Below are positions 2,061 to 37,668 of a stretch of 64,000 nucleotides of DNA, one piece after another. The DNA lies in assembly GCF_003668575.1 (NCBI RefSeq), contig NZ_RCVZ01000002.1:310001-374000 (forward strand), given 5' to 3'. The stretch is from Falsibacillus albus (GTDB taxonomy: Bacteria > Bacillota > Bacilli > Bacillales > DSM-25281). Numbering within the stretch: the stretch's first letter is position 1; every line of letters starts with the position of its first letter. Below the pieces are notes generated by a model that searched no databases, was not told the DNA's origin, and saw only the letters and a list, made by a program, of their open reading frames with translations. Position numbers and translations under genes: made by a program.

Positions 2061-2966
2061 TTATTCTGTGGTAGATAACAGATATTTAATTACCTTGATG
2101 TATGATTCCGCTGTGCTTTCATAATACAGCTGGAGTGAAAAATAAATAACATAACAACACGCAATGAACAGCATGACATCCGGCAATAGCTCTTTCTCCA
2201 AAACAGATAAGGGCACCAAGCTTTCATAGTTGCATAAAAAGTTGTGAAAAGCCTCGTCAAAATGATCGTCATGGGAATGGTCCAGGATTCTCCTCTTTAA
2301 CACCGCAACCATGAAATAAGCGATATCGTACACCTTGCATCCGATCTGACACATATCAAAATCAATAAACCCTTTAAACCTGCCCTTGTTGAATATCATA
2401 TTATTCGGATGGAGGTCACGATGTATCAACTGTTTTGGCAGTTTCCCTTCCATCGCATCCAATCGCATCATGCGATTAAAAAGTTTACTTTTCTCTTGAT
2501 TACACAATGAAAAACGATGTATCCAAGTCAATACCTCATATATTTGATCCCCTAATTCCATTTCATTATAATTTATACATTCTGTATAGTTTTCCGCTAA
2601 ATAATGAAATTCAGAAATGAGCCTCCCAGATTGATTAATATACTCCATTGCCCCTTCTTCGATGAAAGAATAAGGCTTTCCTGCTGTATATGGATAAATG
2701 CAGTATACTCCTCCTTCATACCGGAAAACTTGTTTTCCATATTTATTATATATCGGAACTTGGACACTCAGTCCCTCCTGATACAGATAGGAGAGGAATC
2801 CCCCTTCAAGCTCTGCATGGTGAAAGCATCCTTTTTCCTTTAGGAGATAATGTGATCCCCGATCGGTTGTAAAGAAGCTAACATGATCTTTGTATCGGAT
2901 TAAATGGACAACAGAACCGATATCCCAGCATGAACCAAGCCAATCCAGATTATGGACTTTATTCAT
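2061..2966 (-). CDS. Phosphotransferase (APH/CotS-like kinase fold)
   Basis: A 301-residue protein with the aminoglycoside-phosphotransferase kinase fold. The catalytic loop HRDLHPNN is at residues 182-189 and the metal-binding IDFD at 201-204. Proteins of this type in spore formers include CotS and YsxE/YutH-like coat-associated kinases, but the true substrate is not predictable. The start overlaps the stop of the upstream membrane-protein gene by four bases (ATGA), which suggests translational coupling. It is the last gene of a three-gene set with two small membrane proteins. Confidence 0.75.
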   Translation of the reverse strand: MNKVHNLDWLGSCWDIGSVVHLIRYKDHVSFFTTDRGSHYLLKEKGCFHHAELEGGFLSYLYQEGLSVQVPIYNKYGKQVFRYEGGVYCIYPYTAGKPYSFIEEGAMEYINQSGRLISEFHYLAENYTECINYNEMELGDQIYEVLTWIHRFSLCNQEKSKLFNRMMRLDAMEGKLPKQLIHRDLHPNNMIFNKGRFKGFIDFDMCQIGCKVYDIAYFMVAVLKRRILDHSHDDHFDEAFHNFLCNYESLVPLSVLEKELLPDVMLFIACCYVIYFSLQLYYESTAESYIKVIKYLLSTTE

Positions 2967-3469
2967 ATTTGCCCTTTTTGCATATTATTTTCTTTTTGGA
3001 TTCTATTGAATAGTAAAAACACTGTAAATTGCATCAATGGATACACAGCGAAAGAATAATATATCTCATATCCTTGGCGGTAATGATAAACCCCTAACTG
3101 ATGAGCGATGAATTCCATTACCATGGATATGATGGACCAAATAAAAATGTAAAGGGGGATATGTTTATCGGTTATCTTCAACGCATCCCAAATATACACA
3201 AAATAGTATGAAAATGGTCCGTACATGAAATAGGAGATAAAATCCATTAATTGAAATTCAGAAGTATCATTTACATCATAAAAATTCCATGGCGGGACAC
3301 TGATGGTATGATCATAAAAATTACCGATAAACATCCCTAAAATGACATATAGTGCTTTATCCTGTTTGCTGAATCTCCGAGGCAAAATGAAGAGAAAAGC
3401 ATATGCGGCAAAGAAAACACCGCATGTAAACCATTCGTTGGCATTAAATGAATGATCATACACTTTCAT
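2963..3469 (-). CDS. CBO0543-like multi-pass membrane protein
   Basis: A 168-residue protein with about four or five hydrophobic segments (for example TCGVFFAAYAFLFILP near the N-terminus and YPLMQFTVFLLF near the C-terminus). It carries aromatic-rich conserved-looking blocks (GNFYDHTISVPPWNFYDV, HQLGVYHYRQGYE). It resembles the uncharacterised CBO0543 family found mostly in Bacillaceae and Clostridia. Its 3' end overlaps the kinase start, and its 5' end overlaps the preceding membrane-protein gene by 14 bases. Function unknown. Confidence 0.65.
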   Translation of the reverse strand: MKVYDHSFNANEWFTCGVFFAAYAFLFILPRRFSKQDKALYVILGMFIGNFYDHTISVPPWNFYDVNDTSEFQLMDFISYFMYGPFSYYFVYIWDALKITDKHIPLYIFIWSIISMVMEFIAHQLGVYHYRQGYEIYYSFAVYPLMQFTVFLLFNRIQKENNMQKGQI

Positions 3470-3929
3470 GATGCTTTATCCTTTCAAGTGCTTTAAACCC
3501 TTTTAGCAAGAAATTCATGACAGCTAAAAATAGAATGTAGAAAAGCAGCGTCATTAGCAGGTTCCATTTTAAATAATGATAAACTGAGAAGCTTAGATTG
3601 ATGGATTCCATTCCAATAATGGCGATAAAATAAAATACCACTGCTAATCCCTTTCCGCTCTTCCCCGCCTTGCTGATGATTGCCAAAACCGCAGTAAACA
3701 TTAAAGGCATGCATAAATTTCTGAATAATAAAAAGCCGATAAACTTTTCATAGTGATCGCTTACAGCGATCCACTTTAAATTTAATGACATGACCGTATA
3801 CGAATTCATTAAAAGGATGGACGACACTAAAAAAACAAAAATAAACTCTTTAAACGGCAGCTTATACTTACTGTAAACACATACAAACAGCAGGAGAAAA
3901 AATAAAATGATTTGAATGGCAATGATCAT
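3456..3929 (-). CDS. Multi-pass membrane protein, CBO0543-like
   Basis: A 157-residue integral membrane protein with about five hydrophobic segments. It shares a hydrophobicity pattern and SVYHYLKW-type motifs with its downstream neighbour, so the pair may be paralogues. ATG 3929 is chosen over TTG 3935 because GAGG lies eight bases ahead of it. It is the first gene of the overlapping three-gene set ending with the kinase. Function unknown. Confidence 0.6.
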   Translation of the reverse strand: MIIAIQIILFFLLLFVCVYSKYKLPFKEFIFVFLVSSILLMNSYTVMSLNLKWIAVSDHYEKFIGFLLFRNLCMPLMFTAVLAIISKAGKSGKGLAVVFYFIAIIGMESINLSFSVYHYLKWNLLMTLLFYILFLAVMNFLLKGFKALERIKHHESV

Positions 3930-3952
3930 CCACAAAACCTCTTTTGAATTTT

Positions 3953-6171: not shown

Positions 6172-6495
6172 TCATTTCTCTCCAGAAACTGCTTTCAATC
6201 CAATCATTCCTATTATTATCAAACCTAAGAAGATGAATCTTGCCAATGTTTTTGGTTCATCGAATAATATAATTCCCATAATGACAGCTCCAGCTGCTCC
6301 AATCCCTGTCCAAATCGCATAGGCCGTGCCAATCGGTAAAATTTTGACGGCTGCTGATAAAAAATATAAGCTTATGAGCATCCCGACAACAGTAACTATG
6401 CTTGGATAGACCTTTGAAAAACCGTTAGAGAGTTTTAATCCCATCGCCCAAACCACTTCAAATACACCTGCAATAATCAAATAAATCCATGCCAT
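6172..6495 (-). CDS. SMR-family guanidinium exporter (Gdx/SugE type)
   Basis: A 107-residue four-helix small multidrug resistance protein. The essential Glu13 (GVFEVVWA), the GLKLSNGF loop, and the GTAYAIWTGIGAAG segment define the SugE/Gdx branch, which exports guanidinium in exchange for protons. ATG 6495 follows AAGGAGGA. The guanidine-I riboswitch directly upstream fixes the substrate class and predicts induction by guanidine. The dimer is expected to be antiparallel and formed from this single gene. Confidence 0.9.
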   Translation of the reverse strand: MAWIYLIIAGVFEVVWAMGLKLSNGFSKVYPSIVTVVGMLISLYFLSAAVKILPIGTAYAIWTGIGAAGAVIMGIILFDEPKTLARFIFLGLIIIGMIGLKAVSGEK

Positions 6496-6537
6496 AATCG
6501 AATCCTCCTTAACATACATTATTTTGTGCAAAAATCG

Positions 6538-6578
6538 AAAAAAGCCTCGGAATATCCAAAGATATCTCCCAGGCTTTT
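6538..6578 (-). terminator. Riboswitch expression-platform terminator
   Basis: Minus-strand arms AAAAGCCTGGGAGATATC and GATATTCCGAGGCTTTT pair around a TTTG loop and run into a U-tract. The 5' arm overlaps the conserved 3' strand of the guanidine-I aptamer, so the two structures exclude each other. Confidence 0.85.
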
Positions 6579-6657
6579 GTCCTTCCGTGAACGCAGCAGC
6601 TGCGCGTTTCCTCTCGGACCTGCCCTGCCTTTGAATGGCAGCGGAACCCTAGGAAAC
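6563..6657 (-). ncRNA. Guanidine-I (ykkC) riboswitch aptamer
   Basis: The minus strand carries the conserved ykkC motifs in order: CTAGGGTTCCG (6652-6642), GGTCCGAGAGGAAACGC (6620-6604), then ACGGAAGGACAAAAGCC and TGGGAGATA (6587-6562). It precedes the Gdx exporter gene. The conserved AAAAGCCTGGGAGATATC segment is also the 5' arm of a terminator, so ligand binding should favour read-through. Confidence 0.92.
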
Positions 6658-6686
6658 TTTGTGAATGTATGATGATTTTGTTTGCA

Positions 6687-7979
6687 TTATTCTTTTGTTG
6701 GCGTGCTTTTTATCAATGTCAAAAATCTGAAAATCTCGATCAATAAAATGACCAAGCTCACCCAGACTCCGCCAAATGCAAAGCCCCCGACCAAATCGCT
6801 GGGCTGCTGGATCTGAAGATAACTTTTGCTGATTGCGATCATTGCCAAAATCGAGATGGTTAATACAAGTGCAACCACACTAAAAAAATGGCTGATCGGA
6901 TGCCTGATGATGACATATAAAAAAAAGCCATAGATGACAATCGAAATGAGCATCGACTCGCTTGGAAAAGCATCGCTGAAATTCCGACCTTCAGTAAAAT
7001 AATCGAATAATATATGCAGCCCCTTCCCGAAAATGAGGGCTCCGATTAAATTTACTGCGTAGAACTGCAATTCCATCAGCTTGTTTTTACCGAGAACAAG
7101 CAGCCAAAAAACAGTAAGAAGGATGACCCCATCCAGTGGCTTCCAAGAAGAAAGGGCACTAAAGTAGTGCATCGCCCCCCTCCATCGATCATCAAAGATA
7201 TAATTGATGACTGTCGTAGAAATGATGTTAAATTGTCCAAACTCATTTGCGATAAAGTCTTGGATCAGACCTACCATAAAGCTGATAAGGGTAATCAATA
7301 CCAATGAAACAAACAAAATAAATAACTTGATCCCGATAAAGCTCTTAAATCGTTTAAATGTATGTTCATACAAAAGCCAGCTGTTTTCTTTGATTTTTTC
7401 TCGATTTGTTTTAATAAAAAAATATATTACGTAAATAAGCGCTCCCAGAACACTTGCGACGCCGAGAAATTTGCTCGCTTCCTGATGGAATTCCTCCCAT
7501 TTCGGACCAAAGATTTTCCCAAGCGTGATGAACGTCCCAACCCAAATGAAAACACCGATGTAGGCAAAAATGGCGAATGTTTTAAAATTCATTTTTGTAA
7601 TGCCAGAGAAAATACTGGTCACATGCCTCACACCAGGAACAAAATACGCGAACACCAAAAGCGCCTTGCCGTATTTTTTATGCCAGGCAGCCATCTTGTC
7701 CAGCTTTTCCGGACCTAAATGGATTTTCCTCCCGTGTTTATAGAAAAACGGCGCGCCTAATTTGTAGCCGATCCAATAGGAAACGCTGACCCCGATGATC
7801 CCTCCGACACCACCAAACATAATAGTCAAAAACCAGTTGAGTTTCCCTTGATATACAACAAAACCGACATAGCTCATCAGAACCTCATTCGGTATCGGTA
7901 CAATAATCAACTCGAGCATCAATGAAAAGAAGAGGAAAAGATATCCGTGATGATCAATCATATTCATAAAAAAATCCAC
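6687..7979 (-). CDS. DedA-family membrane protein fused to a degenerate PAP2 domain
   Basis: A 430-residue protein. Residues about 1-190 form a DedA/VTT domain (E23-x4-PIPNE loop; FVPGVRHVTSIFSG re-entrant motif), the family that includes undecaprenyl-phosphate and phospholipid flippases. Residues about 215-425 match the PAP2 phosphatase layout, but the catalytic motifs are altered: KxxxxxxRP reads as KGLHILFDY, PSGH as PSES, and SRx5Hx3D as SKSYLQIQQPSD. All three key Arg/His positions are lost. It begins with GTG 7979 behind AGGAGGGGG. It may be a lipid transporter with a substrate-binding pseudophosphatase. Confidence 0.8.
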   Translation of the reverse strand: MDFFMNMIDHHGYLFLFFSLMLELIIVPIPNEVLMSYVGFVVYQGKLNWFLTIMFGGVGGIIGVSVSYWIGYKLGAPFFYKHGRKIHLGPEKLDKMAAWHKKYGKALLVFAYFVPGVRHVTSIFSGITKMNFKTFAIFAYIGVFIWVGTFITLGKIFGPKWEEFHQEASKFLGVASVLGALIYVIYFFIKTNREKIKENSWLLYEHTFKRFKSFIGIKLFILFVSLVLITLISFMVGLIQDFIANEFGQFNIISTTVINYIFDDRWRGAMHYFSALSSWKPLDGVILLTVFWLLVLGKNKLMELQFYAVNLIGALIFGKGLHILFDYFTEGRNFSDAFPSESMLISIVIYGFFLYVIIRHPISHFFSVVALVLTISILAMIAISKSYLQIQQPSDLVGGFAFGGVWVSLVILLIEIFRFLTLIKSTPTKE

Positions 7980-8186: not shown

Positions 8187-8214
8187 AAAAAAAGAGAGCC
8201 TGCTATTTAGGCTC
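8187..8214 (-). terminator. Intrinsic terminator of spoVR
   Basis: On the minus strand GAGCCTAAATAGCAGGCTC forms a hairpin followed by TCTTTTTTT. It lies 33 bases after the spoVR stop codon. Confidence 0.85.
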
Positions 8215-8246
8215 CCACTCCCTTAAAATAATTTCGGCAAGGCACA

Positions 8247-9665
8247 TTATAAATATTTTCTTTGGACAGATCGGCCGTCATAAGAAAAGAGCATGTTTTT
8301 CCCTTCTACGACAGTATCGAGATGAACCGTCCTTCCCCATAGCTGATGGACATATGGAAGGACCTTTTCTAAATATTTCAAATCGAGTTCTACATCTTCG
8401 AACCAATGCTTCAAGTACAGCTCACCGTTTTTCATATAGTCCCCATCGGTCACTGTGAGGTAAGGGAAACCACCGTTCACTCTCATGTTCACCAGCTGAT
8501 CCCTTACATTTTCCCACTGTTTATCGACCACTTTGTAATCCTTCCCTTGCTTTTGGAAAAGGTACATATCTTCCCGCATGACCAAATCCTTCGTTAAATA
8601 ATTTCTCAGGAAAGAGATATCGGATTCGATTTCGCGCACCTCAAACATTTTTTCCCTTCCTGAATTAGGTTTGACGCCCAGCTCCTTCATATCATCTGTC
8701 GGGTTGTCGTACCTTTCTTCAATATCTTCAAAAATTTTCAAACCGAGATAATATGGGTTGATGCTAGTTCTTGACGGCTGCACGACTCCTGCGTTGAGTT
8801 TCGCAAATTCCAGCGCTTCCCCGCTTGTCAAATCCAGCTCCCGAAGAATCCGCTGGTGCCAATACGATGCCCAGCCTTCATTCATGATTTTCGTTTCAAG
8901 CTGCGGCCAAAAATATAACATTTCTTCCCTGATCATCGTCAAAATATCCCGTTGCCAATCAGCAAGTTCCCTGCTGTAGGACTCAATGAAAAGCAAAATA
9001 TCCTTTTCCGGCTGAGGCGGGAATTTCTTTCGTTTTTTCTTTTTTTCCATCGGTTTCGGTTTCTCATCAAGCGACCATAGATCATCATAAGGAGAAGACA
9101 ACTTTGTATCCTCGTCTTCTTCCCATTCCTCTGCATCCGCCATGGTCCATGACAGCTTTGGCCGCATGAGTGAGGGATCAATATGCTCTTCGATTGCCAG
9201 GACTGCATCGATAAACGTTTCTACCTCCCGCTTTCCGTACTGAATTTCATACTCGCGGATCCTCTCAGCCGTGGCAGACATGCTCTCGACCATGTCTCTT
9301 TTCGTATTCTGAAAACGGACATTATTCTTGAAGAAATCGCAATGGGCCAAAACATGTGCAACGATCAGTTTGTTTTGGATCAACGAGTTTGAATCCAATA
9401 AAAAAGCATAGCAGGGATCGGAATTGATGACCAATTCGTAAATTTTACTCAGTCCAAGGTCATAATGAAGTTTCATTTTAAAAAATTGCTTCCCAAAACT
9501 CCAGTGAGAGAACCTTGTCGGCATCCCATATGCTCCAAAGGTATAAATAATATCAGCAGGACAAATTTCGTAACGCATTGGATAGAAATCTAGACCAAAA
9601 CCTTTGGCAATTTCCGTGATCTCAGCAATTGATTGTTGAAGCTGTTTATGTTCAACCTCTCTCAT
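8247..9665 (-). CDS. spoVR: Stage V sporulation protein R
   Basis: A 472-residue SpoVR-family protein, involved in spore cortex formation in B. subtilis; the biochemical role is not established. Family blocks seen include [42 protein letters not shown] and HRVFEV-like regions near the C-terminus. A highly charged linker (residues about 180-225, [10 protein letters not shown] then [10 protein letters not shown]) is typical. The start ATG follows GGGGGAA. It is monocistronic with its own terminator. Confidence 0.93.
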
Positions 9666-37502: not shown

Positions 37503-37668
37503 GTTGATTTCCGCGCAAGACTTCGCTTTCCGCGTGCCTCACAGGAAGTGAGTTCGTTCGAGGTTGGCACCGGACGTGCCGAACTTAATCGAACATCCGC
37601 CTATTGCCTGTGGGGTCTCACCTGTTCCACTTTTCCAGCCGGAGTCTACGACTTGCGCTCCAATCAAC
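37503..37668. repeat. Dispersed intergenic repeat, copy B (166 bp, inverted orientation)
   Basis: Begins GTTGATTTCCGCGC and ends GCGCTCCAATCAAC, so its ends are the reverse complement of those of copies A and C. It fills most of the 306-base gap between the methyltransferase and helD genes. Internal blocks TGTGGGGTCTCACC and GGAGTCTACG correspond to the reverse complement of copy A segments. Confidence 0.75.

Follow-up and report, generated by a model that had tools for sequence, protein, structure and literature searches.

The window, a 64,000-nucleotide stretch of the Falsibacillus albus genome (4,485,249 bases), encodes a membrane protein in which a DedA/VTT domain is joined to a predicted PAP2-fold domain devoid of the catalytic motifs of that superfamily. 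The original prediction, made from the window sequence, of a DedA domain fused to a dead PAP2 domain was borne out: the open reading frame is real, an orthologue with 72% identity is present in one other genome of the genus compared, the C-terminal half is modelled with a PAP2 fold and its motifs are lost. The fusion of DedA and PAP2 domains is known already; new, so far as the literature searched shows, is the motif loss in the fusions of Bacillota. A further new point, seen in the alignments, is that the DedA half, too, differs from its UptA counterpart, at R112 and Q64. We propose, with about even confidence, that the protein is a UptA paralogue bearing a non-catalytic PAP2-fold domain of accessory or sensing function; this reading draws on sequence comparison and a predicted structure.

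The fusion gene, its locus and its relatives

The fusion gene starts with a GTG codon, with AGGAGGGGG just ahead of it, and is flanked by spoVR (8247–9665) and a small multidrug-resistance (SMR) gene; the order SpoVR, fusion, SMR, ArsR is kept between the window and the sister species. A terminator-like hairpin parts the fusion gene from spoVR (Table 1), so that the fusion gene is probably transcribed alone, as its own transcription unit; the consensus scan found five such sites in the region, as against 1.6 in shuffled sequences. Among the neighbours identified between positions 2963 and 11027 of the window, none is a gene for PAP2, an ECF sigma factor or UptA. The SMR gene (6172–6531, minus strand) is preceded by a guanidine-I riboswitch (6564–6663, minus strand, 92 bits), which is an ordinary pairing. 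Elsewhere in the window a Bacillaceae-1 RNA was matched (37538–37604, minus strand, 53 bits at a cut-off of 35). Two neighbouring small proteins encoded at 2963–3935 (minus strand) are unmatched by Pfam at E 1, and one of the two is weakly CBO0543-like (19 bits, cut-off 35).

Table 1. Features of the fusion gene and its surroundings, in window coordinates
Feature	Position	Strand	Size, basis or remark
Fusion ORF (DedA/VTT + PAP2-fold pseudophosphatase domain)	6687..7979	-	430 aa
DedA/VTT half, residues 1-193	7401..7979	-	UptA-like, below UptA cut-off
Y112 at UptA R112 position	7644..7646	-	no Arg in 128 fusions
R118-H119, second re-entrant loop	7623..7628	-	in 128/128 fusions
Basic linker, residues 194-213	7341..7400	-	predicted cytoplasmic; model confidence low at 207-212
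PAP2-fold half, residues 214-430	6690..7340	-	fold prediction
PAP2 motif 1 remnant, residues 322-330	6990..7016	-	alignment
PAP2 motif 2 remnant, PSES for PSGH, residues 339-342	6954..6965	-	alignment
PAP2 motif 3 remnant, SKSYLQIQQPSD for SRx5Hx3D, residues 384-395	6795..6830	-	alignment
Terminator-like hairpin 3' of SpoVR	8194..8216	-	consensus scan only

Full-length fusions were identified in at least 36 of 299 genomes of the order, with up to five candidates scored per genome. A search of genome contigs with the single window protein matched no relative; the alignment query succeeded and returned 410 relatives. The best 80 of these 410, to which the analysis was confined, come from Bacilli and Clostridia, with Bacillus, Heyndrickxia, Gottfriedia, Sporolactobacillus, Peribacillus, Paenibacillus, Cohnella, Aneurinibacillus, Clostridium and Desulfosporosinus among the taxa represented. 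In 78 of the 80 named loci the fusion is a single open frame. L099 and L115 are relatives lacking a single frame; in L099, separate ORFs encode a DedA-like protein of 214 aa and a pseudo-PAP2-like one of 196 aa.

The set of 128 fusions comprises 117 alignment rows, six further sequences and five more distant ones, the class and phylum samples included; at least 24 new full-length places occur among the matches listed, and 23 were used. Counts of residues and entropy refer to the 117 rows, those of the four catalytic residues and of the UptA network to all 128. Excluded were L037, which occupies the place of L053; L099 and L115, for want of one open frame; L139–L141, in which no fusion was identified; L152, a control; L164, L165 and L169, which duplicate included rows; and L173, whose frame the pattern missed.

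The PAP2-fold half

Against the Pfam PAP2 family (PF01569) the window protein scored 19.2 bits (E 0.001), under the cut-off of 27.2; the family was matched at E ≤ 0.001 by 57 of 79 alignment rows, with 1e-13 as the best value, and the window protein is not one of the 57. The AlphaFold model of the fusion, built with 79 sequences, has a mean pLDDT of 83.7 and a pTM of 0.65. Its residues 225–423 superpose on PgpB of B. subtilis (5jki) with Z 19.7 and rmsd 2.7 over 188 aligned residues (Foldseek E 2.6e-3, probability 1.00), and the next fold matches include G6PC1, LpxE and E. coli PgpB. The match to 5jki assigns the PAP2 fold to the C-terminal half which, as modelled, is thus a member of the PAP2-fold superfamily despite its Pfam score; it shares the predicted fold of PgpB and differs from it by the loss of the catalytic residues. 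A chance resemblance to PAP2 is ruled out by the fold match together with the stronger Pfam matches of the relatives. The predicted inside loops hold more Lys/Arg than Asp/Glu and the predicted outside loops the reverse, a pattern that would place the old active site on the outside, as in the known enzymes. The layout and membrane topology of PAP2 proteins, which the original prediction had taken to be kept, thus agree with the predicted fold and the loop charges. A sequence search of solved structures gave no match to the window protein, and no solved DedA structure is among the fold matches of the model, which proves nothing. The search of PHROGs matched one family, of unknown function.

Active PAP2 enzymes are characterized by three motifs; (i) KxxxxxxRP, (ii) PSGH and (iii) SRx5Hx3D, and the window protein fails this motif test. 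Aligned with 13 canonical PAP2 proteins, it reads H322, T329 and E330 where these have K, R and P, PSES in motif 2, and S384-K385...Q391...D395 for SR-x5-H-x3-D. The loss of the catalytic Arg and His residues claimed in the original prediction therefore stands, with one correction: motif 1 had been set at K319, a register that is off, the true place being three residues further on.

The loss is family-wide. Scoring of the motif-1 Arg, the motif-2 His, the motif-3 Arg and the motif-3 His in the 128 fusions gave none kept in 64, one in 61, two in three and more in zero, so that no member is catalytically complete; since the relatives were chosen for likeness to the window protein, more remote active members could exist. 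Among 103 distinct fusions the motif-1 Arg is retained in one, the motif-2 His in four, the motif-3 Arg in 44 and the motif-3 His in three. The intact motifs of the 13 canonical proteins are no control, since these were chosen by motif pattern. The control was provided by 25 PAP2 genes encoded near fusions and chosen by similarity, which carry SRx5Hx3D in 25 of 25 and PSxH in 23 of 25 cases. The five more distant fusions (L153–L157) keep the motif-3 His and lack its Arg (for example SPIYLRIH, with Pro in place of Arg). In one family of the class (L134–L138) the C-terminal half is still more degenerate, with neither PSGH nor SRx5Hx3D.

In favour of an altered chemistry of a live enzyme, such as a transferase or hydrolase using other residues, one substituted pattern is the commonest in the family: in the 117 fusions motif 2 reads P, then S/N/D, then mostly E (78) and then mostly Q (60), and the motif-3 His is replaced by Q in 63 and by E in 19. 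This reading is nevertheless improbable, for neither the 117-row alignment nor the model reveals a replacement catalytic residue in the PAP2 half; no column holds a replacement nucleophile, and the two His positions of motifs 2 and 3 are occupied mostly by Q, E, K or L across the fusions and by S and Q in the window protein. H360, the one widely conserved His of this half (91 of 117), was considered as a substitute catalytic His and rejected: together with its conserved neighbour R359 it sits at the opposite, predicted cytoplasmic end of TM4, and it is present in nine of the 13 canonical PAP2 proteins. Catalytic residues elsewhere in the domain, which would have contradicted the original prediction, were accordingly not found.

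A functionless relic in decay is likewise a very improbable account of the PAP2 half. Its sub-cut-off Pfam score in the window protein would suit a relic, as would a dN/dS above that of the DedA half in nine of the ten pairs with both values. The values themselves argue otherwise: of 13 pairs tried, 11 gave 0.06–0.23 for the PAP2 half and 10 gave 0.04–0.10 for the DedA half, with dS saturated in the remaining pairs, the window's own included. The single open frame in nearly all named loci, the spread across Bacilli and Clostridia and the presence of fusion-specific conserved residues likewise stand against decay. By these sequence comparisons both halves are under purifying selection in the relatives, and the PAP2 half is not decaying. 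The most conserved columns (of 211) in the PAP2 half are P339, E415, F250, W406, S394, P393, R359, R418 and E303. F250, P339, P393 and W406 are common to the fusions and the canonical PAP2 proteins, while E415 (103 of 103 fusions) and R418 (100 of 103) occur in one and at most one of the 13 canonical proteins, respectively. By entropy, the columns that once held the catalytic Arg and His take ranks between 108 and 177 of the 211. Lax catalytic columns beside invariant ones suggest that the PAP2 half is kept for something other than its original chemistry.

In a rival reading the PAP2 half binds no lipid and only supports the DedA half, as a scaffold for its structure or dimerisation. The positions of the old phosphate site (S342, K385 and Q391 in the window protein) fall in columns that vary at least about as much as the median column, which argues against a kept phosphate site; in these alignments this is the strongest point against a retained lipid site in the PAP2 half, and it makes the scaffold a serious rival. 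The conserved charges E303, R359, E415 and R418, at helix ends predicted to be cytoplasmic and far from the old active site, point the same way, as do three stand-alone DedA proteins nested in the fusion clade, according to which the PAP2 half can be lost. The rim of the old active site is kept, on the other hand, with P339 in 116, P393 in 113, S394 in 113 and D395 in 100 of 117 fusions, and the substituted site Q342/R385/Q391, common to 25 of the 117, hints at a retained pocket in part of the family. On balance a pure scaffold is regarded as possible, though clearly short of an even chance. A fold kept while the catalytic residues are lost in more than 100 relatives indicates that the PAP2 half is probably a helper or sensor, not an enzyme.

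The DedA half, genome context and proposed function

The window protein belongs to the DedA/VTT family by its score of 61.8 bits to VTT_dom (PF09335; cut-off 33.9). To the UptA model NF052604 (NCBIfam) it reaches 130 bits, short of the cut-off of 250, whereas another protein of the same genome scores 324 bits, has R112 and Q64 and is a genuine UptA. With the residues of the DedA half numbered as in UptA by alignment, E32 is conserved in 124, R118 in 128, H119 in 128 and W146 in 124 of the 128 fusions, and all four are found in the window protein. Neither R112 nor Q64 of the modelled C55-P network is present in any of the 128; the window protein reads Y112 and V64, and residue 112 is Tyr, Phe or Cys in 123 fusions. 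In the available extracts of PMC11474028, single changes of E32, R112, R118 and W146 in B. subtilis UptA cut C55-P binding by 27–30%, changes at Q64 and H119 reduce it only modestly, and R112 is modelled as pairing with Q64. Since the loss of R112 cost about 27–30% of binding and that of Q64 a modest part, the absence of both weakens, without excluding, C55-P flipping by the fusion. Carrier flipping by the DedA half, as assumed in the original prediction, is thus less sure than it seemed because of the two missing residues. Given this absence and the separate genuine UptA of the genome, the fusion would be a UptA paralogue, with C55-P flipping not given. The joint absence of R112 and Q64, together with the additional PAP2-fold half, distinguishes the fusion from B. 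subtilis UptA; the missing pair marks a second type of UptA-like protein, and the genomes concerned frequently encode an ordinary UptA as well.

The neighbourhoods of the relatives were compared by clustering the neighbour genes and typing one representative of each cluster by Pfam; all counts are raw, with kinship ignored. The 25 PAP2 genes mentioned above lie within 5 kb of the fusion in 22 of 78 loci; as 61 genomes of the order hold 178 PAP2 genes, about three each, fewer than one of the 78 loci would be expected to have one near the fusion, kinship aside. ECF sigma genes occur in 19 of the 78 loci, zf-HC2 anti-sigma genes in 15, response regulator genes in 24 and GT28-type glycosyltransferase genes in 13. 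In nine loci the ECF sigma gene has the orientation of the fusion gene and follows it by no more than 200 bp; eight of the nine belong to Paenibacillus or Cohnella, two of them to one strain. A copy of the fusion on a Paenibacillus plasmid has undecaprenyl-diphosphatase and glycosyltransferase genes nearby, and in four genomes, all of one genus, UptA is encoded 29–55 bp downstream of the fusion. A UptA match (E ≤ 1e-70) was obtained in 27 of the 36 listed fusion genomes versus 93 of the 263 others, again as raw counts regardless of kinship. A strict ECF-type promoter pattern was found in none of 79 upstream regions, with 0.23 expected in shuffles, which says little. In B. subtilis, SigM governs bcrC and uptA and responds to UndP shortage, according to the extracts available of PMC11081497. 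Judged from gene content, the context of the relatives fits a part in lipid-carrier recycling. An uncharacterised protein some 280 aa long and unmatched by Pfam at 1e-5 (L114, 7639–8478, and homologues in 16 loci) shares its neighbourhoods with the ECF sigma and zf-HC2 genes that lie around the fusion.

As a UptA paralogue with a non-catalytic PAP2-fold domain, the protein would act at the outer face on a lipid phosphate, through two halves working together in one membrane protein. Hydrolysis of C55-PP would be beyond the dead PAP2 half, which may instead assist the DedA half by docking, capture or regulation; the idea of the original prediction, that a pseudophosphatase binds the carrier and gates the flippase, is one form of this proposal. 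That reaction would be left to separate intact phosphatases, often encoded near the fusion genes of relatives. The paralogue probably takes part in stress-responsive or specialised carrier-lipid traffic and not in bulk recycling, which would be within reach of the true UptA of the genome. A more specific version, in which the Bacillota-wide family senses the outer-leaflet pool of undecaprenyl-phosphate or -pyrophosphate and passes the signal on to ECF sigma/anti-sigma or two-component systems encoded nearby, is considered unlikely; the turn to a sensor would have come about by the loss of one transport arginine from the DedA half and of the catalytic set from the PAP2 half.

Comparison with known systems and origin of the fusion

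DedA-PAP2 fusions are listed in PMC9876793 and were proposed to dephosphorylate before flipping (PMC10127716); in the accessible portions of both papers they are taken as a sign that C55-P return and C55-PP dephosphorylation are coupled. Within the open-licence PMC literature, as far as its text is available and with most subscription papers and preprints outside this scope, no mention was found of a dead PAP2 half in DedA fusions. As all 128 Bacillota fusions lack the full catalytic set, DedA-PAP2 fusions are not all phosphatase-flippases, and the dead-PAP2 branch of Bacillota represents a natural separation of function that bears on C55-P return versus C55-PP dephosphorylation. The animal PLPPR/PRG proteins, non-catalytic members of the lipid phosphatase family described as handling or sensing lipid and not cleaving it, offer a parallel, having a PAP2-type topology with substituted C1–C3 residues in the portions seen of PMC9520309 and PMC5798408. 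They are eukaryotic and have no DedA half, and the likeness is one of kind.

The proteobacterial DedA/PAP2 bifunctional proteins, represented here by plasmid copies, have the same domain order as the window fusion and differ from it in their motifs, 2 and 3 being intact in six of the seven examined; two of these six fail the motif-1 pattern, and the seventh (L162, unannotated) has no motif in the frame taken. One such protein, PA4011 of P. aeruginosa, is described in the part of PMC12893004 at hand as giving a partial phenotype and not replacing PA4029. A tree of 73 DedA halves, including 42 of the 117 fusions and the five distant ones, was rooted at the midpoint, where long branches meet. It sets six proteobacterial fusions and one stand-alone protein apart (support 100/94), with stand-alone DedA proteins between them and the fusions of Bacillota. 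The latter form one group (98/95, falling to 85/70 with the five distant fusions), and the stand-alone proteins nested in it are explained most simply if one fusion event was followed by losses of the PAP2 half. This topology leans towards separate origins of the Bacillota and proteobacterial fusions. Tyr112 is also present in four stand-alone DedA proteins just outside the fusion clade (placement weak, 80/48), so that the change at residue 112 may be older than the fusion event. The fusion genes of Roseibium and Thioclava (L161 and L163; motifs 2 and 3 intact) are located directly after mprF.
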